A stretch of DNA of 64,000 bases from Ereboglobus luteus. Its GTDB lineage: Bacteria; Verrucomicrobiota; Verrucomicrobiia; Opitutales; Opitutaceae. The number at the start of each line of letters is the position of its first letter. The first letter of the stretch is position 1. The stretch spans positions 473,299 to 537,298 of the forward strand of contig NZ_CP023004.1 of the NCBI RefSeq assembly GCF_003096195.1, written 5' to 3'. The translations under genes and the position numbers were made by a program. The notes beneath the pieces were generated by a model. The model had not been told where the DNA came from. It made no database searches and was given only the letters and a program-made list of their open reading frames with translations. Shown piece after piece: positions 6,212 through 23,989 of the stretch.

Positions 6212-9200
6212 TTACCAGAGGCGGCGGTAGCCGAGGTTGATCGACCAGGGACGCTCGTAGGCGCCGGCCTTGTTGTATTCATAATCCAAATACACCTGGC
6301 TGCGCGGATCGATCAGGTAGCTCGCGCCGAAACCGGCCTCGAATCGCCAGCCGTCGTAGTCAGGGAGGAAGGTCTTGTCGTTCGCATGGATTTCGCCGCC
6401 GTCGGTGAGGGTTTTCACCACGCCGATTTTGCCGTAGGGCGACCATCTCGAATTTGTGATCTGCCGGCCAAAGCGCACCTGGCCGCGATACTGGGCGGCG
6501 CGGGAGCCGTCCACTTTCACATCAATCGCGACGTCATCCGGCGTGGTGCGATAGCTTGCGCTGTTCAGCCAGGCAAAGGCGGCTTGCACGCCCGGCTCGA
6601 CCCACCAGCCGTCGCCGCGCCCAAACCGGCGGCCCAATTCCAGCGACACGCCTTGCGCGTTGCTGTTGTAATCACCGCGAACCAACCGGTTCCCGGCCGT
6701 GCGCGTCTCAAAGCTGTTTTTGTAGCGGTCCACCTTGAGCACGAGGTCGGCATACCAGCCGTTGTCGTGCAGCCACGCGGCGTAGAGGCCGACCGAGAGA
6801 TTGCGGGTCTTGCCCTCGCTGCCGGCGGCGTCGAAGTCGCGGTCAATGTTGCCCATGTCAACAAATCCGCCGATGAGGTTCACGCTGCTCCGCGCACGGA
6901 AGGCTTTGTCACCGCCGGCGGTCAGGCCGTAGGCATATTGGTCAAAGCCGCGACCGGAGATCGTGTTGTTCGCGTTCAAATGGTAGCCGCGACCGCGCAG
7001 CCACAGGTTGCCGGTCGGTTTTTCGACACCGGTCAACTCGGCGCGGACATGACCCATGCGCAGGTAAAGCGCGTCGAGGGAATAGTGCCAGTCCTTGGCG
7101 AGCATGGCGGCGGTGTTGATGATCGAGTCCGCCACGTCCGAAAGACCGGCGTTGAGCAAATACCATTTGTCGGGATCAAGGTTCAATCCGCTGAGGACCG
7201 CGGAACCCTTGTTGAGCTCGAACGAAACCAGGCCAAAGTCGACCTTCTCACCGTCGAGCAGATAGGTCGCGACTCCGGCGTCGGTGATGAGCGGGATTGC
7301 CGTCTCGCCGTCGGACGGCACGCCGGCGGCGGACACGGAGTTGACCAAAACGGTGTGTGTGCCGTCGGAGCTGCCGTTGGTGATTGCGAGGTGATCGGCC
7401 ACCTCGCCATCGGCCTTGAGCCCGGGGGCGTTGGTGAAGTCGACGTTGAACACCAGCGAGCCATTGTCGCCGGAGAGACTGGCAAGCGTGGCGCGCCTGA
7501 AGGTTGAGCCGGAATGGACAAAACCCAGCGTGGAATTGTTGAGCGCCGTGGCGCCCAGTTGCGCCTGGTCGATGTCGATCCAGATGGCGGAGTCGTCGCG
7601 GACGTCCACGCGGGCGGCGGTTCCGCCGAGGGCGTTGGTGGCGCTCAGGTAAACGATGGCGCTGGAAAGCTCGACGTTGTCGATCGCATTGTCGTGCCCG
7701 ATGCCAAACGAGCCGCTGGTGGTGATCGCGAGCGTGCCCGGGCCGGAGACATTGTTGCCCATCACGCCGTTGACATTGCGATACTCGAGGGTGCCTTCGG
7801 CGGCGACGGAGACATCGGCGGTGTTGAGCGCGGCGAGGTCCTCGAACACGAGCCGGCCAAACTCGACGCTCGCACGGCCGAGGAATCCGGCGTTGGCCGT
7901 CGCGATGACGGCGGTGCCGCTGTTGGCCTTGATGATTTCGCCCGCGCCGCCGAGCGCGTTGACGATGGTGCCGCTCGCGGCGACATCAAACCGGAGCGTG
8001 CCGCCCACCGCGATGTCGCCCGTGCCGAGCGCGGCGAGATCCCTCAGGTCCACCATGGCGGGCTCGGCGATCTCGATGCTGGCGGCGAAACCGGTGTTGG
8101 CGGAGGTGACGGTGAACGTGCCGCCTCGCAATTCGAGCAAGCCGCCGCCGGTGAGCGTGCCGTCCGCGACGCCGCCGTTCACGATGGTGAGCGCGCCATT
8201 GGGGCCGAGGGCGATGGTGGAGCTGGCGGCGGTGTTGAGCGCGCCGATAATTTGCGCGGTATTGCCGATCAGGGTCGTGGTGTTGTTTTCCAAGCGCAGG
8301 AGCGAGGTGTGGCTGTCGTTGCCGCCAAGGACATTGTTTTTGCCGGTCACCAGCATGCCGCCCGCGGTGACAACGGTTTCGCCGGAATAATCGTTGCCGC
8401 TGTTGTTGAGCGTGATGCTGCCGCCGGTGGCGTTGATATGCAGACTGCCCTCGCCGGTGACCCTTGCGTCGAGCACGCTGTCCGTCGCGTCGATGGTGTC
8501 GAGCGCGAGTGTCTTGTCGCGCTGGATGTCGAGCTCCGTGAGCAGATAATCGTAATAGAGACCCGAGCCCCGCCCGTCCGTGGTGTTCGTCGCGGAGGCA
8601 AAGGCCGCGTATTCGTAATTGGCGATCACGACGTCGTCGTAATTTATTTTCTGGCCGTCTCCGATGGCGCGGCCGTCCACGCGCATGATTTCCATCTGGC
8701 CTTCCTGCGTGACGATATCCGCGTCCAAGAGCTTGACGGCGTTCGCACCGGGGCCGTCCTGGTCGAGGAAGTTGGTCGAGGGCGGCAGCGTGCCGGCAGG
8801 CGTCAAGGTTTCGGAGAGGCCTTCGAGGACGACTTTGCTGGAGGAGTCCGCCACCGCGAGCGTGCCGGTCTTGAAAACGTGCGCGGGGCTGAGCGCATCC
8901 ATGGCGATGCCGAGCGTGCCGCCGTCCATCGTCAGGCCGCCGATTGCGCCGCCGCGCGCGACGCGCACATTCGAGGCGGAACCGGCGCGCACGGTCGCGC
9001 GCGCGAGCGCCTGCTCGTTGAGCAAGCCGGCGGCATCGTTGGAGAAGTCGAGCTTGGTCGAGACGAGACTGAGCGTGCCGTTGAAATTCGTGCCGGCGGA
9101 GGCGGCGAAGCTGAATGTGCCGCCGGCGAGATCGACGGCCACCACTCCGGCGCCAGTGAGCGCATTTCCGTAAGTCCAGGCAGGGACTGTGTCGCTTTCG

Positions 9201-12200
9201 ATTCGGAGCGTGCCGCTGACATTGGTCGCGGCGGCGCCGAGATTGTTTTGCCCGCTCACAAGCATGTCGCCGATGATGTCCCACTCGCCGTCGAAGCCGG
9301 TGTTGTCGCCGCCGACCGTGACGGACGCGTCGGACGCGATGCGGTTGGTGCCGCTGCCGCTGATATTCGCCGCCAGGTCAACGCCCGTGACGCGCACATC
9401 CAGCAAACCCGCATTGGCCGTGGTGTTCGCGTATGCGCCGGCGGCGGTGAGCGCGAGCGTGGCGTTGTTGGTCACGTTGCCATCGCCGAGACCGCCAAGA
9501 TGCGCCAGCGTGAGCGTGCCGCCCGTGATCGTGGTCACGCCGGTGCGGACGTTTGCCTGGCTGATGACGAGGTTGCCGGTGTTTTGCTTGATGAGTTCGC
9601 CTGCGCCGGAGAGGGCGTTGGCGAAGTCCCACGTCGCGGCATTGTCGGCGACAAATACACCGCTGTTGGCAATCGCGGCCGCGCCGGTGTTCTCGGCCCG
9701 GCTCGCGATGAGACGCGAATCCGCGTCGATGATGAAACTGCCGGATGCGGTGATGGCGTTTGCTCCGGTGAGCGTGATCGTCGAGCTGCTTGAAAGTTGC
9801 ACGTTGCCGTCGCCGTTGACGGATTTCGCGAAGTCTCCGCGCGCCGCGTCGAACAACACCAGGTTGCTGTTTTCGATCTCACCGGTCACGCCGACGCCGT
9901 CAGCCTCGCGCAATTTGAGCGTGCCGCTGTTTTCAATCGCGGCGGTGAATCCGCTGTTCGAGTTGGTCACATCAAGCATGCCGCCGATGAGCGCGAGCGT
10001 GCCGCCGCCGGTGAGCGCGCCGGAGCTTGTGCCGCCGGACAGAATCGTGAGCGCGCCGGAGTTCAAGTTCAGCGTTGAGGTTGCGGCGCCGTTGAACGCG
10101 CCCACGGTTTGCGCCTTGCCGTCGAGGTCCGCGCCGGTGTTGGCGGCGAGATCAAGCAGGCGCGTCTGGCCGAGCGCGCCGTCAACGCCGAGCTTCAAGG
10201 TGCCGCCGGTGACAAGCGTCGCGCCGGTGTATGTGTTGCCGGTGTTGACCAGGGTGATGATGCCGGTTTCGCCGTCGGCGTTGATTTGCAGGTTGCCGTC
10301 GCCGCTAACCAGGGCGCGCAGTTCGGCGCCGCCGAGGAAGGCGGTGTCCTTGTCCAGCAGCGTCGTCTGGCTGGTGAGCAGGTGCAGGTGTGTGAGCGTG
10401 TAGGCGAGGAAAATGCCGTCGTCGCCGGCCGTCGCCATGAAGTCGTAGGTGCCGCTGGCGGTCACCGTGCCGGCGCGCGTGATGTCGCGCTGCGTGGCGT
10501 CGCCGAGTTCGTTGCCGGCCTGGTCGACAAGCTGCGCGCCGGTGAGCGCGGTCTTGCCGCTGTGCGCGGAGCTCTTGACGAGCTGGACACTCATCTCCTC
10601 ATCCTGCCGCAGGAGCGAGAGCACGGAATTGAAACCGCCCGTGTCAACCACCAGCACGGTGTCGCCGACGTGCAGCGCGTTTGTTTCAACGAAGGAGGCG
10701 GCGGCGGTGCCGCTGTTATCCAGCGCGAAACGGATCGTGCCGCTTTCCAGCAGCAGGTTTCCGATTCGCTGCGAGCCGGTGGCGACTGTCGTGAAATTGC
10801 CGTCATCAATAACCAGGCTCGCGTTCGTGAGCGCGGAGGCATTGTCCGCGCCGAGGGCGAATGTGTTGTTTTGCAAACGCACCGTGCCGCTGTAATTCGC
10901 GCCGACAACAGTGGTCGCGCCGAAATTGAAGCTGCCGGCATTGCGCACCAGCAACTCGCCCGACGCGCCGGCCAAACGGTGGTTGAAAACGTAGTCGCCG
11001 CCCATGCCGTCCAACACGAGGCGGCCGCCGTCGATTTCCACGGCCGCGCCGGACGCGCCGGCGACGCCGAGATTGTCTTGCGAAGTCATGGTGCCGCCGC
11101 CGCGCACGAGCCACGTGCCCGTGAAGCCGGTGTTGTCGCCGGCGATGGAGATATCCGCACCGGAGCCGACAATGGCGGAGCCGACGCCGCTGATGTCGTT
11201 GGAAACGGCGCCGTCGAAATTGTCGAAAACAAGAACGCCCGCGGATTGCACCTCGACTTCCGACGAGCCAAGCGCGCCGGCAATCGCGGCGGTGAGCGTG
11301 CCGGTCGCGATGAGCGTGTCGCCGGTGAAGTTTTCGTTGGCGCGGGCGATGGAGAGGTTGCCGGTGTTTTGCTTGAGGAGCGTGCCGGTGCCGGCGAGGA
11401 CGTTGGTGAAGTCCCATGTCGCGGCATTGTCGGCGACAAACACGCCGGTGTTGGCAATCACGGCCGCGCCGGTGTTGGCGGCCTGGCTCGCGATGAGGCG
11501 CGAATCCGCGTCGATGATGAAACTGCCGGAGTCGGTGATGGCGTTGGCTCCGGTGAGCGTGATCGTCGAGCTGTTTGAAAGTTGCACGTTGCCGTCGCCG
11601 CTCACGGATTTCGCGAAGTCGCCGCGCGCCGCGTCGAACAACACCAGGTTGCTGTTTTCGATCTCGCCGGACACACCGACCGCGCCGGCCTCGCGCAATT
11701 TGAGCGTGCCGCTGTTTTCAATCGTTGCGGTGAATCCGTTGTTGGAGTTGACCACGTCGAGCACGCCGTCGATGAGCGCGAGCGTGCCGCCGCCGGTGAG
11801 CGCGCCGGAGCTTGTGCCTCCGGACAGGATCGTGAGCGCGCCGGAGTTCAAGTTCAGCGTTGAGGTTGCGGCGCCGTTGAACGCGCCCACGGTCTGGGTC
11901 TTGTCGTCGAGGTCAACGCCGGTGTTGGCGGCGAGATCGAGCAGGCTCGTGCGGCCAAAGGCGTTATCCGTGTTGGCGATCACGGTGCCGCTGGTGATCG
12001 TGGTCGTGCCGGTGTAGCTGCTCATCGCGTTGCCGATGAACACCTCGCCGGTGGCGCGCATTTCGAAATTGCCGGTGCCGGTGAGTTGCACGCCAAGAGT
12101 ATCGTCGGTGGCGCCCTCGTTGGCGAGCACGATGGTCTTGCCGTCGTCGGCGTCGAGCCGCTTGAGGCCGTAGGTGAGATACACGCCGCGGCTTCCGTCC

Positions 12201-15200
12201 TCGTCGCTGACCACGGCGAAGTAATCGTAATACGCGGTGCCGAGCGTGCCGCTCGCGTCGGTGACTGGCTTGCTAATCGCGGCTGTGCCGCCACTGAGCG
12301 CGCTGCCGCTGATCGTGGTGATGGAAAGCTGCGCGCCCGCGCCGCTTTCAACAACGCCGGCGGCGATAACTTGCTGGAGATTTTCGCCGTCGTCCTGGTC
12401 GAAGAACGAGGTCGCGGTGGGCGCGTCGGCTTCGAGATCGATCGGGCCGCTGCCGCTGATGACGATGGTGCCCGTGCCGGACGCGCCGAGGCGGTCGACC
12501 GTGAGCGTGCCGGTGATGACGTTGTTGACCATCCTCGTGACAAAGGAGCCGCCGTCGAAGTCGAGGCCGGCGATTTTGCGATTGGATGCGATGGACGCGC
12601 TGCCGCTCGCGCCGAGGTGAAGCATTGCCTTTTGCAAGGCGGTTTCCGAGGTGTCGTCGTCGAGCAGGAATGATCCGTTTTTGACGAGCACCGCGCCGGT
12701 GAAATGGCTTCCGGTGGAGGCGGCGTTCGCGGCGGCGAAGCGGAACGTGCCGGAGCCGCCGAGATCGGCCGCGAGCACGCCGGCGCCACTGAGGGCGTTG
12801 TAGTAGGTCCAGTCGGAGCCGTTGCCGACGGTGAGCACGCCGTCAACGCGCGTGGCGGCGTCGCCGAGATTGTCCTGCATGGCGACGGTCGCGGAGCCGT
12901 CGGCGGCGATGTGCCACAGGCCGTCGAAGCCGGTGTTGTCGCCGGTGATGTTTGTATCCAGATTTTCAATACGGTTGGTGCCGCTGCCGGTGATGTCCGA
13001 CGCAAGCGTGACACCGCTGCCGGTGACAAGGAGCACACCGGCGTTGGCCGTGTTGTTGGCGAAGGCGGCGTTTTCCAGCGCGAGGGTGAGCGTGCCGGTT
13101 TGCGCGATGCGCGCGACGCCGGTCGCGCCGATGGCGCCGGACGCGCCGAGCTCGAGCTCGCCGTTGTTAATGAAGGTGTCGCCCTCGTAGGTGTTGTCGG
13201 ACGTGAGCGCGAGGGTGGAGTCGCCCTCCTTCACCAGCGCGCCATCGCCGGCGATGAGGCCGGAGAAGGTGGAGCTTCGCGCGGTGCTCACCGTGAGCGT
13301 GCCGGTGCCGAGGGTGATGTCGCCGTCGCCGGAGAGGTTGTTCACGCGCTGGTTAAAATTGTTCAGGTCGAACACCCCGTCCACGATGACGGCGTCGCTG
13401 GCGGCGATGGCGTTGGCCGTGCCTGCGCGCAGCACACCCTCGCTGACGAGCGTCGTGCCGGTGTAAGTGTTTTCCGCGCTCAGGATGAGTGTGCCCTCGC
13501 CGAGCTTGGTGAGCGATTTGCCGTCCCAGCCGGCGTGCGCGGTGGTGTTGCCCAAAACGACATCAACGTCGAACGTGTTGCCCGCGCCGAGCGTGAAGTC
13601 GCCGTGGCTGTATGCAGCGTTGCCGCCGAACCATGAGAGATCAATGCCGGCGAGGTATTGTTTCGCATCGGCGGATTTGTAGATGCCGCCGTAGAGATAG
13701 TCGGGAAGGCTCGCGGCGTCGAAACCGGCGAGTGTGGCGCTGGCGAAGGTGCCGGAGATCGTGCCGGTGGTTGTTTTGAGGAGCACTTGCGTGCCGTTCG
13801 CAAGAACCGCGCTGGCGGTGGAAAGATTGGAGTCGATGGTAAATCCGGTCACGCTGAGCGTGCCGTCAACTGTCGCCGTCGATGCGATGACGAAGGCGTC
13901 GTCAAGGCCGCGCGAGGAGGCGTCGAGCGCGAGCGTGGACATGGCATTTTGATAATACCTGCCGCCGACGTTGACGAGACCGCTGCCGGAAACGCCGAGG
14001 TAACCGACGCCGGAATATCCGACGCGGAGGTTGTTCATGTTGTTAAAATAACCGGTGCCGCTCACCGTCACGCGGCCGTCGCTGCCGGCGTAGCGCCCGA
14101 TGTATCCGTGGGTGGTTTGCACACTGCCGCTCCCGGCAATCGTCAGGGTGCCCGTGCCGGTGCGGCCGACATAGAGACCGACCATGCTCGTATTATTCCA
14201 GTATCCAAAATCATCCACGGTCACGCTGCCGTTGCTGTTGGCGGCGTAGCCGATGTTGCCGCTGTCGCTTTGCACGCGGCCGCTGCCTGAAATCGCCAGG
14301 CTGCCGGTGCCGCTGTTGCCGACGCGCAAGTCGCCCGTGTTATTAAAGTAACCGGAGCCGCTCACGGTCACACTGCCTTTACCGCTGGCGTTGTTGCCGA
14401 CGTAACCGTTGGTGGTTTGCACGCTGCCGCTCCCGGCAATCATCAGGATGCCCGTGCCAGACCGTCCGACGTGGAGATCGCCCGTGTTATTCCAGTATCC
14501 GGAACCGTCCACGGTCACGCTGCCGGTGCTGTTGACGCTGTTGTTGCCAATGTAACCGGTGGTGTTTTGCACGCTGCCGCTTTCGGTGATCCTCAGGCTG
14601 CCGGTTCCGTTATTGCCGATGGCGAGTGTGAGCGTGTTATTCCAGAAACCGGAACCGCCCACCGTAACGGCGCCGACGCCGGTGGCGTAGCCGCCGATCT
14701 CGCCGCTGTCGCTTTGCACGCTGCCGCTTCCGGCAATTGTCAGGGTGCCGGTGCCGTTAGCGCCGACATAGAAGCCGCGTGTGTTATTCCAGAAACCGGA
14801 ACCGCCCACTGTCACGTTTCCGACGCCGCCGTCGTAGGCGCCAATGTAACCGAACGCGCTTTTCACGCTGCCGCTTTCGACAATCGCCATGTCGCCCGCG
14901 CCGGTGTCGCCGACATAAAGGTAGCCGTTGCTGGAAACGCCAGCCTCGACGCCGAGATAACCGCTCACGGTGACCGTGCCGCTGTCGGCGGCGGTTTCGC
15001 CAATGATGACGCGCGTGTTGCCACCCGTCCAGTCGGTGATGTTAAGCGCGCCGCCGTTGACGAAGGTCGTGCCGGTGTAGGTATTGCTCGCGCTGAGAAC
15101 GAGCGTGCCCTCGCCGAGTTTGGTGAGCGATTTGCCGTCCCAACCGGCGTGCGCGGTGGTGTTGCTTAGCGCCACGTCAACGTCGAACGTGTCGCCCGCG

Positions 15201-18200
15201 CCGATGGTGAACGTGCCGTGGCTTCGCGGCGCGTCGCCGAACCAGGAGAGGTTGACCCCGGCGAAGTATTGTTTCGCGTCGGCGGATTTTTGAATGCCGC
15301 CGTAGATATAATCTGGCAGGTCGGCGGCGTCGAAACCGTCGAGCGTGGCGCTGGCAAACGCGCCGGCGATCGTGCCCGTGGTTGTTTCGAGGAGCACTTG
15401 CTTGTCGTTGGCGAGAACCGCGCTGGCGGTCGAGAAATCCTCGCCGATGCTGAACCCGGTCACACTGAGCGTGCCGCCGACTGTCGCCGATGACGCGATG
15501 ACGAAGGCGTCGTCGCTGCCGCGCGAGGAGGCGTCGAGCGCGAGCGTGGACATGGCGTTTTGGCGATAGGCGCCGCCGACGGTGACGAGGCCGCTGCCGG
15601 ATATGGCGAGGCGGCCCGTGCCGCTGTTGCCGACGATGAGGTTGCCCGTGTTGTTCCAGAGGCCGGAATCGGAAACGGTCACAACACCATTGCCGCTGGC
15701 GAAACGACCGATGTAAGCGGTGTCGCTTTGCACGCTGCCACTCCCCACAATCGCTAGGGAGCCATCGCCGTAACGTCCGACGGAGAGGTTGCCCGTGTTG
15801 AGCCAGTGGCCCGAACCGCCCACGGTCACGGCGCCAACGCCGCCGGCGCTGTTGCCGATGGCGCCGATGTTGTTTTGCACGACGCCGCTTCCGGAAATAG
15901 TCATGCCGCCGGCGCCTTTATCGGCGACGTAAAGATCGCCCGCGGTGCCAAGGTAACCGCTCACGTTGACCGTGCCGCTGTCGGTCGCGGTCGCGCCAAT
16001 GATGACGCGCGCGGTGCTGCCCGTCCAGCCGGTGATGTCGAGCGCGCCGCCGTTGACGAGGGTCGTGCCGGTGTAGGTGTTGCTCGCGCTGAGGATGAGC
16101 GCGCCCTCGCCGAGCTTGGTGAGCGATTTGCCGTCCCAACCCGCGTGCGCGGTGGTGTTGCCGAGCGCCAGGTCAACGTCGAATGTATCGCCCGCGTCGA
16201 TGGTGAAAGTGCCGTGGCTGTATGACGTGTCGCCGAACCAGGAGAGGCTCAGGCCGGCAAGGTATTGTTTCGCGTCGGCGGATTTGTAGATGCCGCCGTG
16301 CAGATAATCGGGAAGCCCTGAGCCGTCGAAGCCGTCGAGCGTGGCGCTGGCAAACGCGCCGGAAATCGTGCCCGTGGTTGTTTCGAGGAGCACTTGCCGG
16401 GCGTTGGCAAGAACCGCGCTGGCGGTCGAATCATCCGAGCTCGCGGCGAATCCGGTCACGCTGATCGTGCCGCCAACTGTCGCCGATGTTGCGACGATGA
16501 AGGCGTCGTCAAGGTCGCGCCCGGAGGCGTCGAGCGCGAGCGTGGACCTGGCGTTTTGGGAATACGCGCCGCCGACGTTGACGAGGCCATCGCCGGAAAT
16601 GCCGAGGTAGCCGGCGCCAAGATCGCCGAGAGTGAGATTGCCCGTGTTATTCCAAAGGCCGGAATCGGACACCGTCGCGCGGCCGGTTGCGGCGGCGGCG
16701 GAGCCAATGGTGACACCGACTGTTTGCGCGGAGCCGCTGCCGGCGATCACAATTTCGCCGCCGCCATCGCCGCCGACGTGGAGTTCGCCGGTGCTGCGGA
16801 GATAACCGGCCACATCGACCGTGCCTGTGTAGGTGACGAGGTCGGAGCGGTTGAAGATGAGCGCGGCGCCGGCGGCGACTTGCGCGTTGGCGGCGACCGC
16901 GCCGCCCGCCCAGCCGTCGGTTGCGCCGGAGCCGATTTGGAGCGCGCCGGTTTCGACGACGAGGTTGCCGGTGATGGCGTTCGCGCCGGTGAGTGTGGTG
17001 GTGCCGGCGCCGAGCTGGACGAGGTCGCCCGCGCCGGTGATCGCGCCGCCGTGGGTGATGTTGTCGGAGCGGTTGATTGTGAGCGTGCCGGAGTTGGCAA
17101 CCGCGGCGCTGGCGATCATGCCGGACGCGCCGCCGCCCTCCCCTTCGCCGAGCTGGAGGTGCGCGCCGGTTTCGATTGTCGTGACTCCGGTGTGGGTGTT
17201 GTTGCCGACGAGGATGAGCGCGCCGCCGGCGGCGAGTGTGAGCGCGCCCGCGCCGTCGATCGTGCCGGAGAAGACGAGGCCGGCGGTGTTGTTGATGATG
17301 TCGAGCGAGCCGTCACCGATGTGGATGGCGCCCGCGCCGGAGAGGTTGCGCAGGGCTTGGTCCGTGTTGTCGGTGTCGAAGGCGGCGCCGGCGGTGATGG
17401 TCACCTTCGTGCTGCTGGCGATGATGTTGTCGATGCCGGCGGTGGTGAGCGTGGCGGAGCCGGTGATGAGTGTCTCGCCGGTGTAGTCGTTGTCGGTGTG
17501 GCCGAGGATGATGGTGCGACTGCCGGTGAATGCGAAGCCCGCCGCGCCCGTGCCGGTGAGTTGCGCGCTAAGTGTGTCGTCGATGGCGTCGCCCGGATCG
17601 ATGACGATGTTTTCGATGTCGCTGAGCGACTCGATTGAGATGAGGCCGTGGTTGAGCAGGATGTCGCCGTCCTGGGTGATGGCGTTGTAGCCGTAGGTAT
17701 TTTTGCCGACGGGCCTGCCGCCTGTATCCGTGCCGTAGGTGATGGAGGAGGTGCCGGAAAGGATCGGGTCGCCGTTGCTGTCAACAAGGTCAAAGCCGAT
17801 GCCGTCCTCGGGGCCGTTTTCGGTGGAGTGAACGATGGTGCGCTCGCGCAGGAAGGAGCCGGACGCGATGACGTCAATGTCAAAGATATTTCCCTCAAGG
17901 CCAATTCGCGGGTCCGGTGCCTGGGGGACGCCGGAGAGGAGTTCGGTGTCGACGCCGATCGTCGTCGAGGCGGTGAGGTTGTCCTCGTTGACGAGGAGCG
18001 TTTTCACGGTGAGCAGATGTGGCTCCACGCCGGAGGTCGAGTCCGTGTTGGTTTTCACGATGAAGGTGCCGCCGTCGAGGTTGAGGCCGCCGATAGAGCG
18101 GTCGGCATCGAGGATGGTCTCGGAGTTTTCGGTGAGCCAGAGGGTCGCGTCAGCGAGAACGGTTTCGGCGTCGTCGTTGAAATTGAAATGGGTCATTTGC

Positions 18201-21200
18201 GCGCCTCCGCCGACGCCGACTGTGCCGGTGAAGTAAACGTCTGAGGGATTGAGAGGCTGAAGGCTGAAGGTGACGGCGTCGGTCGGTGAGGTATTGAGGA
18301 GGCGCACGAAGCCGCCGCCGGTGAGCGTGTTGGCGACGGTGGCGTCAGCGGTGGCGCGCACGCCGAGAGTCGCGCCGGCGGCGATGTTCACGGCGGCGGC
18401 GTTGAGTTGGGTGATCCCCCAGTCCACGGTCAGGAGGCCTTCGCGCACATCGACGGCGTGCATGTCGAGGCCGTCGGTGTCCATGATCCATTCGCCCCCG
18501 CCTTGCTTGGCCAGCGTGCCGGTGAAAGTCGTGGGGCCGGTGACCGCCGAAGTGTAGGCGTATTCGCTGCCGGCCGCGCCGTTGAGCACCAGTTGCGAGG
18601 CGGTGCCGGCGATGGCGAGCCGCCCGACCAGCGTGCTGCTGTTCCAGAGATGCACCTCGTGCGCCTCGTCGTCGCCGAGCAAGTCAATGGCGTAGTCGCC
18701 GCCGAGAATGACTCCCCCGGCCAGGTTTGTGACAACGGTCCGGCCCTCCTCGTTGGAAACGCCCACGTCGGCCAAGCCGATGATCGTGCCGCTGTTTGCC
18801 AGCGTGCCGCCGTATGCCAGCATGACGCCGGCATCGGCGCCCTGGATCAAGCCGCCGGCGTTGTTGGTAATCGTGGCCTCCTCCTCGGATTCGATACCAC
18901 TTGCGTAAGACTGGCCGGGGATGCCCTCGGCGAGGATGGTGCCGCTGTTCGCAATGGTGCCTCCGGCTCCCAGGAAAATGCCGAACCTGCCGCCTTGGAT
19001 GAGGCCGGTGGCATTGTTGGTGATCCTGGCCGCGTCGCGACTGCTGATGCCGGTAATGGCCCCGCCGATGATCGTGCCGCTGTTGGTGACCTCGCCCCCG
19101 GTTTGCATGCGGATGCCAAGCGTGCCTCCGCGGATGAGACCTCCGGCGGCGTTTGTGATTGTCGCCCCGGTGTTGATGGCGTGGATACCCGTCACGCCCT
19201 CAATCGTGCCGCTGTTGAGAACGGTGCCCCCGGCTTGCAACAGGACGCCGCCCCTGAAGCCCCTGATGAGGCCGCCGTCGGTGTTGCTCACCAGCATGGG
19301 CACGTTAACGTTGGTGACCGCGTATTCGTCGCCTTTGATGACGCCACGGTTGGTGATTTCGCCGCCGGCATCCAATTGCACGCCGTTGCGACTGCTCGAA
19401 ATCAAACCGGTGGCGTTGTTGGTGAGCAGCACGGGCGCGCCGCCGCCGCGGACTCCGGCGGCGTCCGCGTTGAATATGCCACTGCTGATGATCGAGCCGG
19501 AATTAATGACGACGCCCCCGGCTGTCAGCGCCAGACCGGCGGACTCGCCATACATCAAGCCGGTGACGCCGTTGGTGATGTGCGCGGCGGCATTTTCGGA
19601 AAGCACGCCGTGGCCCCCGCTAATGAAAGAACTGCGCGTGCCGCGGATTTCCCCGGTGTTTTCCACCGTGCCCCCGGCCTGCATGTGAACGCCGGCCAGG
19701 ACACCCTGGACCAGGCCGCCGGTGGTGTTTGTGATTGTGACGGTATCGCCGGCGCGGATGCCGTAACTGGCGGCGTTTGTGCCAATGATCCGGCCGCTGT
19801 TTGTGATCGTGCCATTGCCCGCCAGCGAAATGCCCGCGGTGCCGCCTTGGATCAGGCCGATGACGGCGTTGGTGATTATTATATTATCGCCGCCCTCAAT
19901 GCCGTGAGCCTCGGTGCCGATGATCGTGCCGCTGTTCGTCACCGTGCCGCCAACGGCGAGATGCACGCCGGCGATGCTGCCTCGGACAAGGCTTTCGTTG
20001 GCAAAATCCGCCGCGCCCTCCAAGATAACCGCCGTGCCGGTGACGTCGATGGTGCCGGTGTTGGCGAGCGTGGAACTGGCCCCGATGACGGCGCCGCGTT
20101 CGCCGCGCATGAGGCCCCGGTTGTCAACCTTGGTGGTGCCTCCCGCGTAGATGCCGCCCTCGATAACGCCGGTGTTGGTGATTTCCGCCCTGCCGTCGTT
20201 AACGAGCACAGCGTAGTCGTTGCCGCCGATGATCGTGCCGCTGTTCGCGACCGTGCCGCCGGCGCTGAGAAACACGCCGATGAGCCCGCCGCGGACAAGG
20301 CTTCCGTTGGCAAAATCCGCCGCGCCCTCGAAGATGACCGCCGTGCCGGTGACGTCGATGGTGCCGGTATTGGCGAGCGTGGAACTGGCCCCGATGACGG
20401 CGCCGCGTTCGCCACGCATGAGGCCTTGGTTGTCAACCCGGGTGGTGCCGCCCGCGTAGATGCCGCCCTCGATGACACCGCCGGCGGCGTTGGTGATGTC
20501 CGCCACGCCGTTGTTAACGAGCACAGCGTAGTTGCTGCCGCCGATGATCGTGCCGCTGTTCGCGACCGTGCCGCCGACGCGGAGATGCACGCCGGCGAGA
20601 CTGCCGCGGGCAAGGCCTTGGTTGTTGAAATCCGCCACGCCCTCGAAGATGACCGCCGTGTTGGTGACGTCGATGGTGCCCGTGTTGGCAAGCGTGGAAC
20701 TGGCTCCGATGACGGCGCCACGGACGCCGCGCATGAGGCCCCGGTTGTCAACCCGGGTGGTGCCGCCCGCGTAGATGCCGCCTTCGATGACGCCGTCGGC
20801 GGTGTTGGTGATGTCCGCCACGCTTCTGTTTGCGTTCACCGCGTATTCTTTGACGCCAATAATCGTGCCGCTGTTTGTCACGGTGCCGCCACTGAAGAGA
20901 TTCACGCCCTGAACCCTGCCATGAATCAGGCCGCCGACCGCGTTATCCACGGATCCGATGCCGATGTGGGAAAAGACGCCGTAACCGTCGGATCCGACGC
21001 CGGAAATCGTGCCGGCATTGACCAGCGTGCCGCCGCCGCCGAGATACACTCCGTGGCGGGAGCCTTGAATCAGGCCGCCCGTCGTGTTGCTTACGAGCGT
21101 GGCGGTGGAGGCGGAATAGATGCCGCTACCTCCGGCTCCGGTGCCGGATATCGTGCCGGCATTGAGCACCGTGCCACCCGCCCTGAGATACACGCCGCGA

Positions 21201-23350
21201 CTGAGGCCCCAAACCAGGCCGCCGGTCGTGTTGCTCACGAGTGTGGCGTTGTTGGAAGACTGGACGCCGAAACCACTGGCGCCGGTGGCGGAAATGACGC
21301 CGCTGTTGACCACGATGCCGCCGCCCTCAAAGTTCACACCGCGATCGAGGCCCTGAATCAAGCCGCTGGCAGTGTTGTCCACGAGCGTGACGGCAGAGGA
21401 GGAATAGGCGCCGCCAACGCCGGCTCCGGCGCCGATGATCGTGCCGCTATTTGTAACCGTGCCGCCGGCGACGAGTTGAACGCCGGTGATGCCGCCTCGG
21501 ATGAGGCCCCCGTTGGCGAAATCCGCCACGCCTTCAAAGATGACCGCCGTGCCGGTGACGTCGATGGTGCCGGTGTTGGCAAGCGTGGAGTCAACCCCGA
21601 TGACGGCGCCGCGGTCGCCGCGCATGAGACCCCGGTTCTCAACCTGGGTGGTGCCTCCCGCGTAGATGCCGCCTTCGATAACGCCGACGACGGCGTTAGT
21701 GATTTCCGCCATGCCGTCGTTAACGAGCACAGCGTAGTCGTTGCTGCCGATGATCGTGCCGCTGTTCGTCACCGTGCCGCCATTGAAGAGATACACACCC
21801 ACGGTGCCGCCCTGAATCAGGCCGCCGGTCGCGTTATCCACGGATCCGATGCCGAGGTGGGAATAGACGCCGTGACCGCCGACTCCGGTGCCGGAGATCG
21901 TGCCGGAATTGAGAACCGTGCCTCCCTCCCTGAGATACACGCCGCGAAGGCCGCCCTGAATCAGGCCGCCGGCCCTGTTGCTCACGAGCGTGGCGTTGTT
22001 GGCGGAATGGACGCCAAAACCACTGGCACCGGTGGCGTCAATGATGCCTCTGTTGTCCACGATGCCTCCGCCGACGAAATACACACCACGGGCGACGCCC
22101 TGAATCAGGCCACCGGTCACGTTATCCACGGATGCGATGCCGGCATGGGAATAGACGCCGTAACCGCCGGAGCCGTTGCCGGAAATCGTGCCAGAATTGA
22201 GCACCGTGCCGCCTACCCAAAGATACACGCCATGATTGACGCCCCGGATCAGGCCGCCGTCCGTGTTGCTCACGAGCGTGGCGTTGGAGCTGGAATAGAC
22301 GCCCGCGCTGTAAGCTCCGGTGCCGGAAATGGTGCCGGCGTTGAACACCGTGCCGCCTCCCGCGAGATACACGCTGTTGTAATCGCCCTGAATCAGGGCT
22401 CCGGTCGTGTTGCTCACAAGCGTGGCGTTTGCCTTGGAATAGACTCCTGCGTCCAAGGATCCGGTGACGCCGGTGCCGGAGATCGTGCCTGCATTGAGCA
22501 CGATGCCTCCGCCGCCGAGAGACACTCCCTGATAATTGCCACGGATCAGGCCGCCGGTGCTGTTGCTCACGAGTGTGGCGGCGGCACTGGAAGATACACC
22601 GACGCCGGCGGTGGCTCCTGTGCCTGAGATGACGCCGGCATTGAACACCGTGCCGCCTGCGACGAATTTCACGCCGTGAATGCCCTCGATCAGGCCGCCG
22701 GTGGTGTTTGTGATTATTGTATTATTGTTCGCGAGGACGCCGGTGTCCGTCCCTCCGATGATCGTGCCGCTATTTGTGATCGTGTTGCCGCCGCCCTGCA
22801 GGAAAACGCCCATGTTTGTGCCTTGGATCAACCCGGCGCTGTTTGTGATTGTTATATCACTGCTGCCGGTAATGCCATAATACTTCGTGCCGATTATCCT
22901 GCCGGCATTTGTCACCGTGCCCCCACCCCGCATGTTAATACCGGCACCGCCGCCTTGAATCAGACCCGTGGCATAGTTTGTGACGGACGAGGGATTGGTG
23001 GCCGAAAAAACGCCGAAGTCCGACGAACTGATGACCGTGCCGGAGTTGTGAATGACAGCGCCGCCCTTAATAAAATTCAAGGCATAGCCACTTGAGTTCA
23101 CGCGTCCGAGGGAATCGATGAGTAGTGTCACGCCTGGCATTGATCCTGTTACGGTTCCGTTGTCGCGCGTGCCGCGAATCGCATAAGTTCCAGAGGACGG
23201 GATATTAAAATTGCCGGGCGTGAGGGGGATGATCGTCACATCTTGCGAGGGCAGCTGAACGGCGAAGGCCGCAAACAGGAGAAACACTGGGACGGCGCGC
23301 AAACCGCAGGGAGCCATCCGATATGTCGCGGGAGGGTTTGTAGTTTTCAT
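6212..23350 (-). CDS. Giant autotransporter (about 5712 residues) with nested repeat passenger
   Basis: One uninterrupted frame of about 17.1 kb. The frame is open to 23407, but the ATG at 23348-23350 directly precedes a normal signal peptide (MKTTNPPATYRMAPCGLR, hydrophobic core, QLPSQ), so that start is chosen. Approximate layout by residue: 100-1560, rungs with GGTVxNSGTIxG; 1500-2175, a block homologous to the smaller autotransporter; 2180-3300, three copies of a PATR/T5SS-PEP-CTERM-repeat super-module; 3300-5200, more PATR units including two near-identical copies of about 205 residues; 5200-5400, pertactin-like end of passenger; 5445-5712, beta-barrel ending LGYRRLW. The passenger appears free of cysteine. 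The barrel should sit in the outer membrane and the passenger outside the cell. Role (adhesion, biofilm or attachment) is inference. Precise repeats make recombination and length variation likely. It is far larger than most autotransporters. Confidence 0.93.
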   Translation of the reverse strand: MKTTNPPATYRMAPCGLRAVPVFLLFAAFAVQLPSQDVTIIPLTPGNFNIPSSGTYAIRGTRDNGTVTGSMPGVTLLIDSLGRVNSSGYALNFIKGGAVIHNSGTVISSSDFGVFSATNPSSVTNYATGLIQGGGAGINMRGGGTVTNAGRIIGTKYYGITGSSDITITNSAGLIQGTNMGVFLQGGGNTITNSGTIIGGTDTGVLANNNTIITNTTGGLIEGIHGVKFVAGGTVFNAGVISGTGATAGVGVSSSAAATLVSNSTGGLIRGNYQGVSLGGGGIVLNAGTISGTGVTGSLDAGVYSKANATLVSNTTGALIQGDYNSVYLAGGGTVFNAGTISGTGAYSAGVYSSSNATLVSNTDGGLIRGVNHGVYLWVGGTVLNSGTISGNGSGGYGVYSHAGIASVDNVTGGLIQGVARGVYFVGGGIVDNRGIIDATGASGFGVHSANNATLVSNRAGGLIQGGLRGVYLREGGTVLNSGTISGTGVGGHGVYSHLGIGSVDNATGGLIQGGTVGVYLFNGGTVTNSGTIIGSNDYAVLVNDGMAEITNAVVGVIEGGIYAGGTTQVENRGLMRGDRGAVIGVDSTLANTGTIDVTGTAVIFEGVADFANGGLIRGGITGVQLVAGGTVTNSGTIIGAGAGVGGAYSSSAVTLVDNTASGLIQGLDRGVNFEGGGIVVNSGVISATGASGFGVQSSNNATLVSNTTGGLVWGLSRGVYLRAGGTVLNAGTISGTGAGGSGIYSASTATLVSNTTGGLIQGSRHGVYLGGGGTLVNAGTISGVGSDGYGVFSHIGIGSVDNAVGGLIHGRVQGVNLFSGGTVTNSGTIIGVKEYAVNANRSVADITNTADGVIEGGIYAGGTTRVDNRGLMRGVRGAVIGASSTLANTGTIDVTNTAVIFEGVADFNNQGLARGSLAGVHLRVGGTVANSGTIIGGSNYAVLVNNGVADITNAAGGVIEGGIYAGGTTRVDNQGLMRGERGAVIGASSTLANTGTIDVTGTAVIFEGAADFANGSLVRGGLIGVFLSAGGTVANSGTIIGGNDYAVLVNDGRAEITNTGVIEGGIYAGGTTKVDNRGLMRGERGAVIGASSTLANTGTIDVTGTAVILEGAADFANESLVRGSIAGVHLAVGGTVTNSGTIIGTEAHGIEGGDNIIITNAVIGLIQGGTAGISLAGNGTITNSGRIIGTNAASYGIRAGDTVTITNTTGGLVQGVLAGVHMQAGGTVENTGEIRGTRSSFISGGHGVLSENAAAHITNGVTGLMYGESAGLALTAGGVVINSGSIISSGIFNADAAGVRGGGAPVLLTNNATGLISSSRNGVQLDAGGEITNRGVIKGDEYAVTNVNVPMLVSNTDGGLIRGFRGGVLLQAGGTVLNSGTIEGVTGIHAINTGATITNAAGGLIRGGTLGIRMQTGGEVTNSGTIIGGAITGISSRDAARITNNATGLIQGGRFGIFLGAGGTIANSGTILAEGIPGQSYASGIESEEEATITNNAGGLIQGADAGVMLAYGGTLANSGTIIGLADVGVSNEEGRTVVTNLAGGVILGGDYAIDLLGDDEAHEVHLWNSSTLVGRLAIAGTASQLVLNGAAGSEYAYTSAVTGPTTFTGTLAKQGGGEWIMDTDGLDMHAVDVREGLLTVDWGITQLNAAAVNIAAGATLGVRATADATVANTLTGGGFVRLLNTSPTDAVTFSLQPLNPSDVYFTGTVGVGGGAQMTHFNFNDDAETVLADATLWLTENSETILDADRSIGGLNLDGGTFIVKTNTDSTSGVEPHLLTVKTLLVNEDNLTASTTIGVDTELLSGVPQAPDPRIGLEGNIFDIDVIASGSFLRERTIVHSTENGPEDGIGFDLVDSNGDPILSGTSSITYGTDTGGRPVGKNTYGYNAITQDGDILLNHGLISIESLSDIENIVIDPGDAIDDTLSAQLTGTGAAGFAFTGSRTIILGHTDNDYTGETLITGSATLTTAGIDNIIASSTKVTITAGAAFDTDNTDQALRNLSGAGAIHIGDGSLDIINNTAGLVFSGTIDGAGALTLAAGGALILVGNNTHTGVTTIETGAHLQLGEGEGGGASGMIASAAVANSGTLTINRSDNITHGGAITGAGDLVQLGAGTTTLTGANAITGNLVVETGALQIGSGATDGWAGGAVAANAQVAAGAALIFNRSDLVTYTGTVDVAGYLRSTGELHVGGDGGGEIVIAGSGSAQTVGVTIGSAAAATGRATVSDSGLWNNTGNLTLGDLGAGYLGISGDGLVNVGGAYSQNARSTLALDASGRDLDDAFIVATSATVGGTISVTGFAASSDDSTASAVLANARQVLLETTTGTISGAFASATLDGFDGSGLPDYLHGGIYKSADAKQYLAGLSLSWFGDTSYSHGTFTIDAGDTFDVDLALGNTTAHAGWDGKSLTKLGEGALILSASNTYTGTTLVNGGALDITGWTGSTARVIIGATATDSGTVNVSGYLGTAGDLYVADKGAGGMTISGSGVVQNNIGAIGNSAGGVGAVTVGGSGHWLNTGNLSVGRYGDGSLAIVGSGSVQSDTAYIGRFASGNGVVTVSDSGLWNNTGNLIVGNSGTGRLAISGSGLVTVGGAYRQNAMSTLALDASSRGSDDAFVIASSATVGGTLSVTGFSIGEDFSTASAVLANDKQVLLETTTGTIAGAFASATLDGFDAADLPDYIYGGIQKSADAKQYFAGVNLSWFGDAPRSHGTFTIGAGDTFDVDVALSNTTAHAGWDGKSLTKLGEGTLVLSASNTYTGTTFVNGGALNITDWTGGNTRVIIGETAADSGTVTVSGYLGVEAGVSSNGYLYVGDTGAGDMAIVESGSVKSAFGYIGAYDGGVGNVTVGGSGFWNNTRGFYVGANGTGTLTIAGSGSVQSDSGEIGGYATGVGAVTVGGSGFWNNTLTLAIGNNGTGSLRITESGSVQNTTGYIGNNSVNSTGSVTVDGSGYWNNTGDLHVGRSGTGILMIAGSGSVQTTNGYVGNNASGKGSVTVSGSGYFNNTGDLRVGNSGTGSLAISGSGRVQSDSGNIGYAANSNGSVTVDDFGYWNNTSMVGLYVGRTGTGTLTIAGSGSVQTTHGYIGRYAGSDGRVTVSGTGYFNNMNNLRVGYSGVGYLGVSGSGLVNVGGRYYQNAMSTLALDASSRGLDDAFVIASTATVDGTLSVTGFTIDSNLSTASAVLANGTQVLLKTTTGTISGTFASATLAGFDAASLPDYLYGGIYKSADAKQYLAGIDLSWFGGNAAYSHGDFTLGAGNTFDVDVVLGNTTAHAGWDGKSLTKLGEGTLILSAENTYTGTTLVSEGVLRAGTANAIAASDAVIVDGVFDLNNFNQRVNNLSGDGDITLGTGTLTVSTARSSTFSGLIAGDGALVKEGDSTLALTSDNTYEGDTFINNGELELGASGAIGATGVARIAQTGTLTLALENAAFANNTANAGVLLVTGSGVTLASDITGSGTNRIENLDTNITGDNTGFDGLWHIAADGSATVAMQDNLGDAATRVDGVLTVGNGSDWTYYNALSGAGVLAADLGGSGTFRFAAANAASTGSHFTGAVLVKNGSFLLDDDTSETALQKAMLHLGASGSASIASNRKIAGLDFDGGSFVTRMVNNVITGTLTVDRLGASGTGTIVISGSGPIDLEADAPTATSFFDQDDGENLQQVIAAGVVESGAGAQLSITTISGSALSGGTAAISKPVTDASGTLGTAYYDYFAVVSDEDGSRGVYLTYGLKRLDADDGKTIVLANEGATDDTLGVQLTGTGNFEMRATGEVFIGNAMSSYTGTTTITSGTVIANTDNAFGRTSLLDLAANTGVDLDDKTQTVGAFNGAATSTLNLNSGALTILSGGTSSGALTGGGTLALIDGVLDVVNSNNGFTATIENSGTLKLREAGAVGVSGEIENSNLVLFDAARGDFAKSVSGDGNVQLSNSSTITLTGANAITDSGSFIIDADSRLIASQAANTGAAVIANTGVFVADNAATWDFTNVLAGTGTLLKQNTGNLSIARANENFTGDTLIATGTLTAAIAGALGSSEVEVQSAGVLVFDNFDGAVSNDISGVGSAIVGSGADISIAGDNTGFTGTWLVRGGGTMTSQDNLGVAGASGAAVEIDGGRLVLDGMGGDYVFNHRLAGASGELLVRNAGSFNFGATTVVGANYSGTVRLQNNTFALGADNASALTNASLVIDDGNFTTVATGSQRIGNLLLESGTIRFALDNSGTAAASFVETNALHVGDTVLVVDTGGFNSVLSLLRQDEEMSVQLVKSSAHSGKTALTGAQLVDQAGNELGDATQRDITRAGTVTASGTYDFMATAGDDGIFLAYTLTHLHLLTSQTTLLDKDTAFLGGAELRALVSGDGNLQINADGETGIITLVNTGNTYTGATLVTGGTLKLGVDGALGQTRLLDLAANTGADLDGKAQTVGAFNGAATSTLNLNSGALTILSGGTSSGALTGGGTLALIGGMLDVTNSNSGFTAAIENSGTLKLREADGVGVTGEIENSNLVLFDAARGDFAKSVNGDGNVQLSSSSTITLTGANAITASGSFIIDADSRLIASRAENTGAAAIANSGVFVADNAATWDFANALSGAGELIKQNTGNLVISQANVRTGVTTITGGTLTLAHLGGLGDGNVTNNATLALTAAGAYANTTANAGLLDVRVTGVDLAANISGSGTNRIASDASVTVGGDNTGFDGEWDIIGDMLVSGQNNLGAAATNVSGTLRIESDTVPAWTYGNALTGAGVVAVDLAGGTFSFAASAGTNFNGTLSLVSTKLDFSNDAAGLLNEQALARATVRAGSASNVRVARGGAIGGLTMDGGTLGIAMDALSPAHVFKTGTLAVADSSSKVVLEGLSETLTPAGTLPPSTNFLDQDGPGANAVKLLDADIVTQEGQMEIMRVDGRAIGDGQKINYDDVVIANYEYAAFASATNTTDGRGSGLYYDYLLTELDIQRDKTLALDTIDATDSVLDARVTGEGSLHINATGGSITLNNSGNDYSGETVVTAGGMLVTGKNNVLGGNDSHTSLLRLENNTTTLIGNTAQIIGALNTAASSTIALGPNGALTIVNGGVADGTLTGGGLLELRGGTFTVTSANTGFAASIEIAEPAMVDLRDLAALGTGDIAVGGTLRFDVAASGTIVNALGGAGEIIKANSGTAVIATANAGFLGRASVEFGRLVFEDLAALNTADVSVAAEGTLEYRNVNGVMGNNVSGPGTLAITTSGSFGIGHDNAIDNVELSSAIVYLSATNALGGTAARVDVRDDSAIWIDIDQAQLGATALNNSTLGFVHSGSTFRRATLASLSGDNGSLVFNVDFTNAPGLKADGEVADHLAITNGSSDGTHTVLVNSVSAAGVPSDGETAIPLITDAGVATYLLDGEKVDFGLVSFELNKGSAVLSGLNLDPDKWYLLNAGLSDVADSIINTAAMLAKDWHYSLDALYLRMGHVRAELTGVEKPTGNLWLRGRGYHLNANNTISGRGFDQYAYGLTAGGDKAFRARSSVNLIGGFVDMGNIDRDFDAAGSEGKTRNLSVGLYAAWLHDNGWYADLVLKVDRYKNSFETRTAGNRLVRGDYNSNAQGVSLELGRRFGRGDGWWVEPGVQAAFAWLNSASYRTTPDDVAIDVKVDGSRAAQYRGQVRFGRQITNSRWSPYGKIGVVKTLTDGGEIHANDKTFLPDYDGWRFEAGFGASYLIDPRSQVYLDYEYNKAGAYERPWSINLGYRRLW
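9560..10172 (-). repeat. Intragenic direct repeat, copy A (about 610 bp)
   Basis: Near-identical to 11345-11957 at an offset of exactly 1785 bases (595 codons). It encodes a PATR-containing segment with LDLAANTGADLDGK, LTILSGGTSSGALTGGG and SGSFIIDADSRLIAS. Differences are scattered single bases, which suggests recent duplication or gene conversion. Confidence 0.85.
11345..11957 (-). repeat. Intragenic direct repeat, copy B (about 610 bp)
   Basis: Partner of 9560-10172. A third, clearly diverged relative (LTIVNGGVADGTLTGGG) is encoded around 8050-8310, so the recent pair sits on top of an older series. Confidence 0.85.
13446..13990 (-). repeat. PATR super-module, copy 1 of 3
   Basis: Encodes the segment running from YTGTTLVSEG back through HAGWDGKSLTKLGEG, FTLGAGNTFDVDV and STLALDASSRG. 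It aligns base for base over most of its length with 15058-15598 (offset 1614) and 16056-16592 (further offset 996); both offsets are multiples of three. It is followed on the N-terminal side by eight T5SS/PEP-CTERM-type repeats. Confidence 0.82.
13991..14990 (-). repeat. Tandem T5SS/PEP-CTERM-associated repeats (about 8 units)
   Basis: Units of about 46-47 codons with the pattern GTGxLxIxGSGSVQ, xGYIG, VTVxGSGYWNNTGxLxVG. This matches the family known as the T5SS/PEP-CTERM-associated repeat. The same unit occurs about three times at 15600-15990 and about twice at 16600-16810, in each case next to a copy of the PATR super-module. Confidence 0.82.
15058..15598 (-). repeat. PATR super-module, copy 2 of 3
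   Basis: Encodes HAGWDGKSLTKLGEG, FTIGAGDTFDVDV, FASATLDGFD and STLALDASSRGSDD. It is the middle copy of the triplicated super-module and is followed towards the N-terminus by about three T5SS/PEP-CTERM-type repeats (15600-15990). Confidence 0.82.
16056..16592 (-). repeat. PATR super-module, copy 3 of 3
   Basis: The N-terminal-most copy, encoding HAGWDGKSLTKLGEG, FTIDAGDTFDVDL and STLALDASGRDLDD. It is followed towards the N-terminus by only about two T5SS/PEP-CTERM-type repeats (16600-16810), the shortest array of the three. Confidence 0.8.
19916..20850 (-). repeat. Three tandem units of about 310 bp in the rung region
   Basis: Successive units are offset by 309 and 315 bases (103 and 105 codons). 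Each encodes VIEGGIYAGGTT, NRGLMRGERGAVIG, STLANTGTIDVTGTAV and a closing GGTVANSGTIIGG rung. A fourth copy lies at about 21428-21745 inside a larger repeat. Long stretches are identical at the DNA level. Confidence 0.8.
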
Positions 23351-23989
23351 GGCATTACTGTGTTTGCAGTCCGGCTGCGGAAACACGCGCCGGGCGGCGC
23401 ATTGCATGGATTAATTAACGGGAAAAATCATGGTATTTTTGAATTCACATTCATTGCTATAGCGCGTCTCAAAACCGTCGTTTAATTAAATTCTAAAAAT
23501 GTAAAATACCCCGCGGCCAAACCGCCCGATAAAAAAACAGATCGATTATATAGTAAATTATTAAATCGGTTCGTTCGGTCAAAATGGAGTAAAATGAAAC
23601 GAAATTTTGCATATACATAATCATGCTTTCCGGCGCGGGTGCCACAACTCGCGACGGAAGTTGATCGCGCGTCGACCGCGGCATTAACAACAACCCGGCG
23701 CCACCCATAAATTTAACAAATCGAAATCCAGCGGGCCAGTCATCAAAAGGAAAAACTCGATTGCTAGTATAATTAAACAAACAACAACAATCGGATTCGT
23801 TTTATTATAATTTCATAATTTTATCACATATTGCACACAACGCGAGCGCCGCCACAATTTCTGCGTATGCAATTAATATAAAACAAAAATGTCATTCATG
23901 CCCCCGCTGGCCATCAATACGGGGACGGCTTCGCCAAACCCGCCGTGTTTGTCGCCCGCAATTCCCGCCACATTCGGCGCGCAAAGGTA
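23351..23989. other. AT-rich spacer upstream of the giant autotransporter
   Basis: About 640 bases without a convincing gene, far richer in A and T than the neighbouring coding DNA. It lies between the start of the giant gene and the 3' end of the M23 peptidase gene, so it should contain the giant gene's promoter and leader. Two TTAATTAA palindromes occur at 23411-23418 and 23482-23489, 71 bases apart; whether they are protein sites is unknown. The minus-strand frame at 23493-23780 has no recognisable product and unlike codon use. Confidence 0.55.

Follow-up and report, generated by a model that had tools for sequence, protein, structure and literature searches.

A giant gene of Ereboglobus luteus (Opitutaceae, Verrucomicrobiota) very probably encoding a type Va autotransporter, with a proposed fibre role and turnover of its repeat array

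How a passenger of several thousand residues passes through a single outer membrane barrel and folds, and where such a length comes from, are questions raised by one locus of Ereboglobus luteus, which belongs to a genus of gut bacteria of cockroaches. The window (the whole stretch of DNA analyzed, 64,000 nt) covers 473,299–537,298 of a single 4.17-Mb contig; positions are those of the window (genome position minus 473298) unless the contig is named. Two of its genes are at issue:

6212..23407, minus strand: giant autotransporter gene, likely start ATG 23350, 5,712 aa, ~569 kDa, with a syntenic orthologue in Ereboglobus sp. PH5-10
326..5356, minus strand: smaller neighboring autotransporter, 1,676 aa, downstream of the giant and sharing its core

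In the ORF list of the window the giant frame runs for 5,731–5,732 codons with zero stops, and 5,731 sense codons in a row could essentially not arise by chance; the initial annotation, which described one 17.1-kb frame of ~5700 residues, was thus correct. Position 23350, given there as the end of the frame, is instead its second ATG (residue 20); from this codon the product is 5,712 aa long, with a signal-like stretch right at the N-terminus. The signal peptide claimed by that annotation is retained to this extent, as a signal-like N-terminus recognized by inspection and with a counterpart in the orthologue:

23243..23350, minus strand: signal-peptide-like N-terminus, residues 20–55 (by inspection; counterparts in the orthologue and paralogues)

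The sequence from Met20 reads MKTTNPPATYRMAPCGLRAVPVFLLFAAFAVQLPSQ, and inspection of residues 20–55 distinguishes n-, h-, and c-like regions, with a basic n-region and the hydrophobic core AVPVFLLFAAFAV. After the signal the mature protein has zero cysteines, and cysteine makes up 0.039% of the residues of autotransporter proteins across the E. luteus genome, compared to 0.79% in eight other proteins of the window. Upstream of the giant gene lie genes for a peptidase M23 and a radical-SAM HemN-like protein, followed by a histidine kinase and amino acid biosynthesis genes; scans for promoters and terminators up- and downstream of the giant gave no excess over shuffled sequences.

The C-terminus carries the parts expected of a classical autotransporter:

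6215..7015, minus strand: 12-stranded outer-membrane barrel ending in W (PF03797, structure model, Foldseek)
7037..7138, minus strand: alpha-helical linker (helices 428–438 and 440–461 of the 735-aa model, directly before strand 469)
7283..7543, minus strand: autochaperone-like segment (weak match to PF18883 AC_1; profile matches to pertactin and IcsA)

The protein ends in ...NLGYRRLW (PWSINLGYRRLW), as had been read from the sequence, and its final 600 aa match PF03797 (140.7 bits); TIGR01414 scores 187.7 bits. When 2,865 aa were scanned against Pfam at once PF03797 went unreported, which we take to be a filter effect. An AlphaFold model of the last 735 aa, based on 27 homologues, has a pLDDT of 87.7 and comprises beta-helix, autochaperone-like part, linker helix, and 12 long strands. 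In Foldseek this model matches the BrkA barrel (3qq2, E 6.6e-15, TMt 0.89), with EspP next among the best solved matches; a sequence profile of the C-terminus retrieves Vag8 (E 2.4e-57), as well as BrkA, EspP, the C-terminal part of pertactin (E 2.8e-15), and IcsA (5ke1, E 7.9e-11). The autochaperone-like segment, absent from the initial annotation, scores 19.2 bits against PF18883 AC_1, under the 27.1 cut-off of that model.

Between signal and autochaperone-like segment, the passenger consists of a tip, an array of rung units (GGTVxNSGTIxG), and a long stalk:

22820..23242, minus strand: mature tip and first two rung units, residues 56–196, position kept between species
19976..22813, minus strand: length-variable middle portion within the distal rung array, with 48- and 105-aa units (TRF, unit counts, DNA comparison)
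18701..19972, minus strand: proximal end of the rung array, ~8 units, position largely kept between species
7544..18700, minus strand: constant stalk, beta-strand repeats over ~3,700 aa, among them PATR and T5SS/PEP-CTERM units (PH5-10 alignment)
14038..14914, minus strand: tandem T5SS/PEP-CTERM-associated repeats (TIGR04393; six stretches, 106.7 bits in total; TRF arrays of 147 and 297 nt)
13148–13237, 13427–13513, 15038–15127, 16034–16123, and 16934–17023, minus strand: five PATR units above cut-off (PF12951)
9506–9595, minus strand: sixth, weak PATR unit (PF12951)

All three repeat classes named at the outset were recovered, as 26 rung units, six PATR matches (five above cut-off), and six TIGR04393 stretches, and the three profiles proposed as checks (PF12951, TIGR04393, and PF03797) all match the giant frame. 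The PF12951 matches (PATR, also TIGR02601) score 24.8–46.0 bits. The rung units, ~48 aa long, were matched by none of the curated family models and were counted with a small purpose-built profile; in this region TRF reports tandem arrays of 144, 288, and 315 nt with copies 66–86% alike at the DNA level. A protein self-BLAST of the giant for internal repeats returned zero rows, so the repeat evidence consists of TRF and the unit searches.

An AlphaFold model of the mature tip and rungs (484 aa; pLDDT 92.9, pTM 0.91) has six strands per 48 aa, and we read the modeled unit as two turns of a three-sided beta-helix. Foldseek alone gave zero matches under 0.001 for this model; in the re-aligned Foldseek list Vag8 is at the top (Z 29.7, 372 residues, 2.5 Å), followed by a phage tail protein, a tailspike, and pertactin (Z 22.8–23.6), and tailspikes and lyases of the same fold score Z 17–26. 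Beta-helix is therefore present in both modeled parts of the passenger, which are 484 and 735 of 5,712 residues; that the middle of at least 4,000 residues would also be beta-helix is suggested by its repeat families and strand-like sequence. Assuming 24 residues and 0.48 nm per turn, a passenger that was wholly beta-helix (~223 turns, 107 nm) would form a rod estimated at ~100 nm. The initial reading, that one frame encodes a giant classical autotransporter, is supported by the barrel, linker, autochaperone-like region, beta-helix model, depletion of cysteine, and a conserved syntenic orthologue that is under purifying selection; with high probability it is a type Va autotransporter, with the fibre role and array turnover proposed below.

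Ereboglobus sp. PH5-10 encodes the same gene pair in the same order and place, with frames of 1,694 and 7,032 codons, which shows that the giant frame is not an accident of assembly; in a search of genome contigs with the last 700 aa of the giant, the PH5-10 gene was the only match (83% identity). Between the two species DNA identity is 92–95% in the flanks, 86–89% across the small gene as well as the stalk and barrel of the giant, and 73–79% in the rung array, which is rearranged. The alignment that begins at residue 1222 and reaches the C-terminus spans ~4,500 residues and is nearly gap-free. The stalk is ~80–90% identical in most 200-aa blocks, and the sole long indel from residue 1222 onward measures 49 aa, as long as a single TIGR04393 unit. 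For this pair dN/dS (Nei–Gojobori, own script) is 0.456 over 4,461 codons, 0.40–0.55 per 500-codon block, and 0.257 in the barrel; the overall value of 0.46 is moderate constraint only.

These comparisons bear on whether the frame could be a decaying or unexpressed repeat relic, open because G+C-rich repeats seldom make stops. The opposite strand also holds long open frames (1,406 aa at 18407..22627), and some sister genes in the E. luteus genome are broken (one into 2,874 and 1,893 codons, another with its barrel split at contig 1826959/1826974). However, the syntenic PH5-10 orthologue is open for 7,032 codons, no block from residue 1222 onward reaches a dN/dS of 0.6, the barrel being lowest at 0.26, third-position changes are in excess (488/386/687), and signal, tip, and last strand are conserved, all of which makes a relic very unlikely. 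From the orthologue alignment, dN/dS, and absence of cysteine we read the giant as a translated, exported protein. The antisense frame at 18407..22627 (plus strand) lies opposite the rung array and probably stems from the composition of the repeats; the longest antisense frame in the PH5-10 orthologue (1,239 codons) is at a different place in the gene.

The rung array is where the two orthologues part. The same purpose-built profile that counts 26 units in E. luteus counts 55 in PH5-10. At the distal end the tip is 50% identical over 141 aa, and the first two units correspond one to one (EL_93/PH5_93, 85%; EL_137/PH5_135, 75%). At the proximal end the units again correspond, from EL_1127/PH5_2220 (86%) through EL_1507/PH5_2854 (70%), with most of the last eight 67–86% identical. 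Between these conserved ends the units of the two species lack a one-to-one order. By this comparison of two genomes, the distal array has roughly doubled or halved its middle between the species, as tip, array base, stalk, and barrel apparently stayed fixed; the middle is too rearranged to tell a loss in E. luteus from a gain in PH5-10.

A difference in unit count could also arise from assembly, through repeats collapsed or expanded, to which tandem arrays of 144–315 nt might be prone. The E. luteus contig repeats at least 16 kb at its two ends, the copies differing by 46 gap openings and one mismatch, indicating that the assembly is incompletely polished there; this overlap is an untrimmed circle, and its first copy has the shorter frames. 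Against an artefact, the array copies differ by 14–34% and would be placeable even by modest reads, and with copies only 66–86% alike at the DNA level simple repeat collapse is unlikely. Moreover, the single contig and the indel-only differences at its ends suggest long reads, the frame is intact across 17 kb with unit boundaries in frame, and the independent assembly of another species (PH5-10) has the same architecture. We consider an artefactual count very unlikely.

Comparison with the neighboring gene indicates what else was added. Residues 98–1156 of the neighbor are 63% identical over 1,055 aa to residues 1134–2188 of the giant (counted from Met20), whereas the C-terminal 412 residues, including the barrel, are only 37.6–38% identical; the barrel of the giant is closest to that of another paralogue (60%). 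The orthologue of the neighbor in PH5-10 is nearly equal in length and 84% identical. By these alignments, the giant looks like the neighbor with two additions, a distal rung array ahead of the core and ~3,100 residues between core and barrel, and the two would have a common core with reassorted barrels.

The initial annotation regarded the size as unusual and asked how such a passenger is transported. The question is genuine, but the size is not new. Five frames in the E. luteus genome exceed 5,000 codons (6,440, 5,949, 5,732, 5,491, and 5,482), the giant ranking third among the barrel-bearing frames, and BigE, at 10,429 aa, was the largest autotransporter reported in 2012 (PMC3419190); size as a novelty was rejected on these grounds. 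What is new is the source of the length, a distal array of 26 versus 55 units with the rest conserved.

Barrel-bearing frames are expanded across the genus, with 44, 45, 30, and 23 PF03797 barrels in four Ereboglobus genomes, compared to 0–1 in nine other Opitutaceae genomes and two or fewer in another six genomes from the order. In E. luteus they total ~318 kb, or ~7.6% of the contig. A search of the available literature for work on autotransporters in Opitutaceae found none.

Several observations concern the sister genes themselves. Three sets of distant paralogues (loci L015/L016/L017, L018/L019, and L021/L022) have 330-aa C-termini that are 99.7–100% identical and passengers that differ (DNA 77–98% in pieces), a sign of recent duplication or of gene conversion. 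Locus L015 adjoins a second frame and seems to be part of a split gene, the one with frames of 2,874 and 1,893 codons noted above. At L030 (contig 1826501–1827258) the barrel is divided between two frames (positions 1–153 and 155–255), either from a broken gene or from a sequence indel. One autotransporter gene (L008/L047) is 98.1% identical over 12 kb between species compared to ~88% for others, suggesting recent exchange; its frame is 3,539 codons in E. luteus versus 4,585. Two PATR-rich frames (contig 3021937–3024741, 2,485 codons; 4157478–4160609, 3,075 codons) gave no match to the PF03797 barrel.

Among known systems, BigE is likewise a type Va protein in which the passenger is enlarged by internally replicated beta-strand repeats, but it is described as having eight copies of a ~300-aa segment, 69-aa repeats, and an EstA-type barrel, unlike the 48-aa rung array and PATR/TIGR04393 modules of the E. 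luteus giant. ShdA-type PATR adhesins (TIGR02601/PF12951) also combine PATR repeats, beta-helix, and barrel; the giant is ~2.8 times longer than the ShdA model (2,050 positions), with rung and T5SS/PEP-CTERM arrays in addition, and its passenger parts score 111–114 bits against NF011847, far under the 2249-bit cut-off. The closest solved structures are those of Bordetella Vag8, pertactin, and BrkA (Vag8 for the passenger and C-terminal profile, BrkA for the barrel), the passengers of which are several times shorter and align structurally with the rungs at 13–14% identity. To our knowledge, these passengers are without long tandem arrays. Periscope proteins are length-variable rods, a class defined by highly identical, individually folding repeats, and ShdA, a PATR autotransporter with 4–6 repeats, was counted in their survey (PMC9704523). 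The giant shares with them a tandem array of variable unit number that sits between an anchored rod part and a conserved distal tip, and repeat number differs between relatives (26 versus 55 with conserved ends, in two genomes). Its repeats, however, are 66–86% alike at the DNA level and are turns of one modeled helix, so that it behaves like the Periscope class without having the repeats that define it.

In type Va secretion the protein is exported by Sec, the barrel is assembled by BAM, and the passenger exits as a hairpin and folds outward from its C-terminus. For Pet, vectorial folding promoted by the barrel has been argued (PMC5895577). By analogy, the giant would be exported via its N-terminal signal, its barrel would be inserted by BamA, perhaps with the help of TAM, and the passenger would exit as a hairpin through the barrel/BamA pore. 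Folding would start at the autochaperone-like segment and proceed toward the N-terminus, with every turn added onto the one before it; length would cost time, and no new principle would be required. The distal array would since have gained or lost units, leaving tip, array base, and stalk unchanged.

The E. luteus genome encodes a BamA-like Omp85 and one frame that joins TamB to an Omp85:

Contig 2835807–2841713 (locus L054:1308–7214): TamB (PF04357) and TamA-type Omp85 with POTRA (PF07244, PF01103) in one 1,968-aa frame

In all three Ereboglobus genomes in which this locus was seen, TamB and TamA form a single frame (1,970–1,995 codons), the E. luteus frame being 98% identical to that of PH5-10 and 72% to that of a third genome, whereas in other Opitutaceae in which both were found TamB and TamA are adjacent separate frames. 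The gene fusion thus appears restricted to Ereboglobus among the sampled Opitutaceae, and one chain would span the envelope. As both the barrel expansion and the fusion describe one lineage, a link between them is offered as a suggestion. The fuller scheme, in which the giants would be fibres of tunable length (tip conserved, array turning over, stalk constant) and would depend for export on the unusual one-chain TamB–TamA, a fusion that would have arisen or been kept alongside the several-fold barrel expansion, is quite unlikely to hold.

Processing is common among autotransporters, and the passenger might be cleaved and leave the cell, acting as a secreted enzyme or processed adhesin, instead of being kept as a fibre. 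Among the Foldseek and VIA matches to the rung model are lyases and epimerases that have this beta-helix fold, but profile searches found no catalytic domain families in any part of the giant, and release seems unlikely. Judged from fold and family, the most likely role of the giant is that of a putative cell-anchored adhesive or aggregation fibre with a reach adjustable by repeat turnover. The orthologous pair shows which parts of such a protein may vary in length and which may not, and is a natural test of passenger length as a limit on export. Ereboglobus would be a good model for the export of very long passengers.
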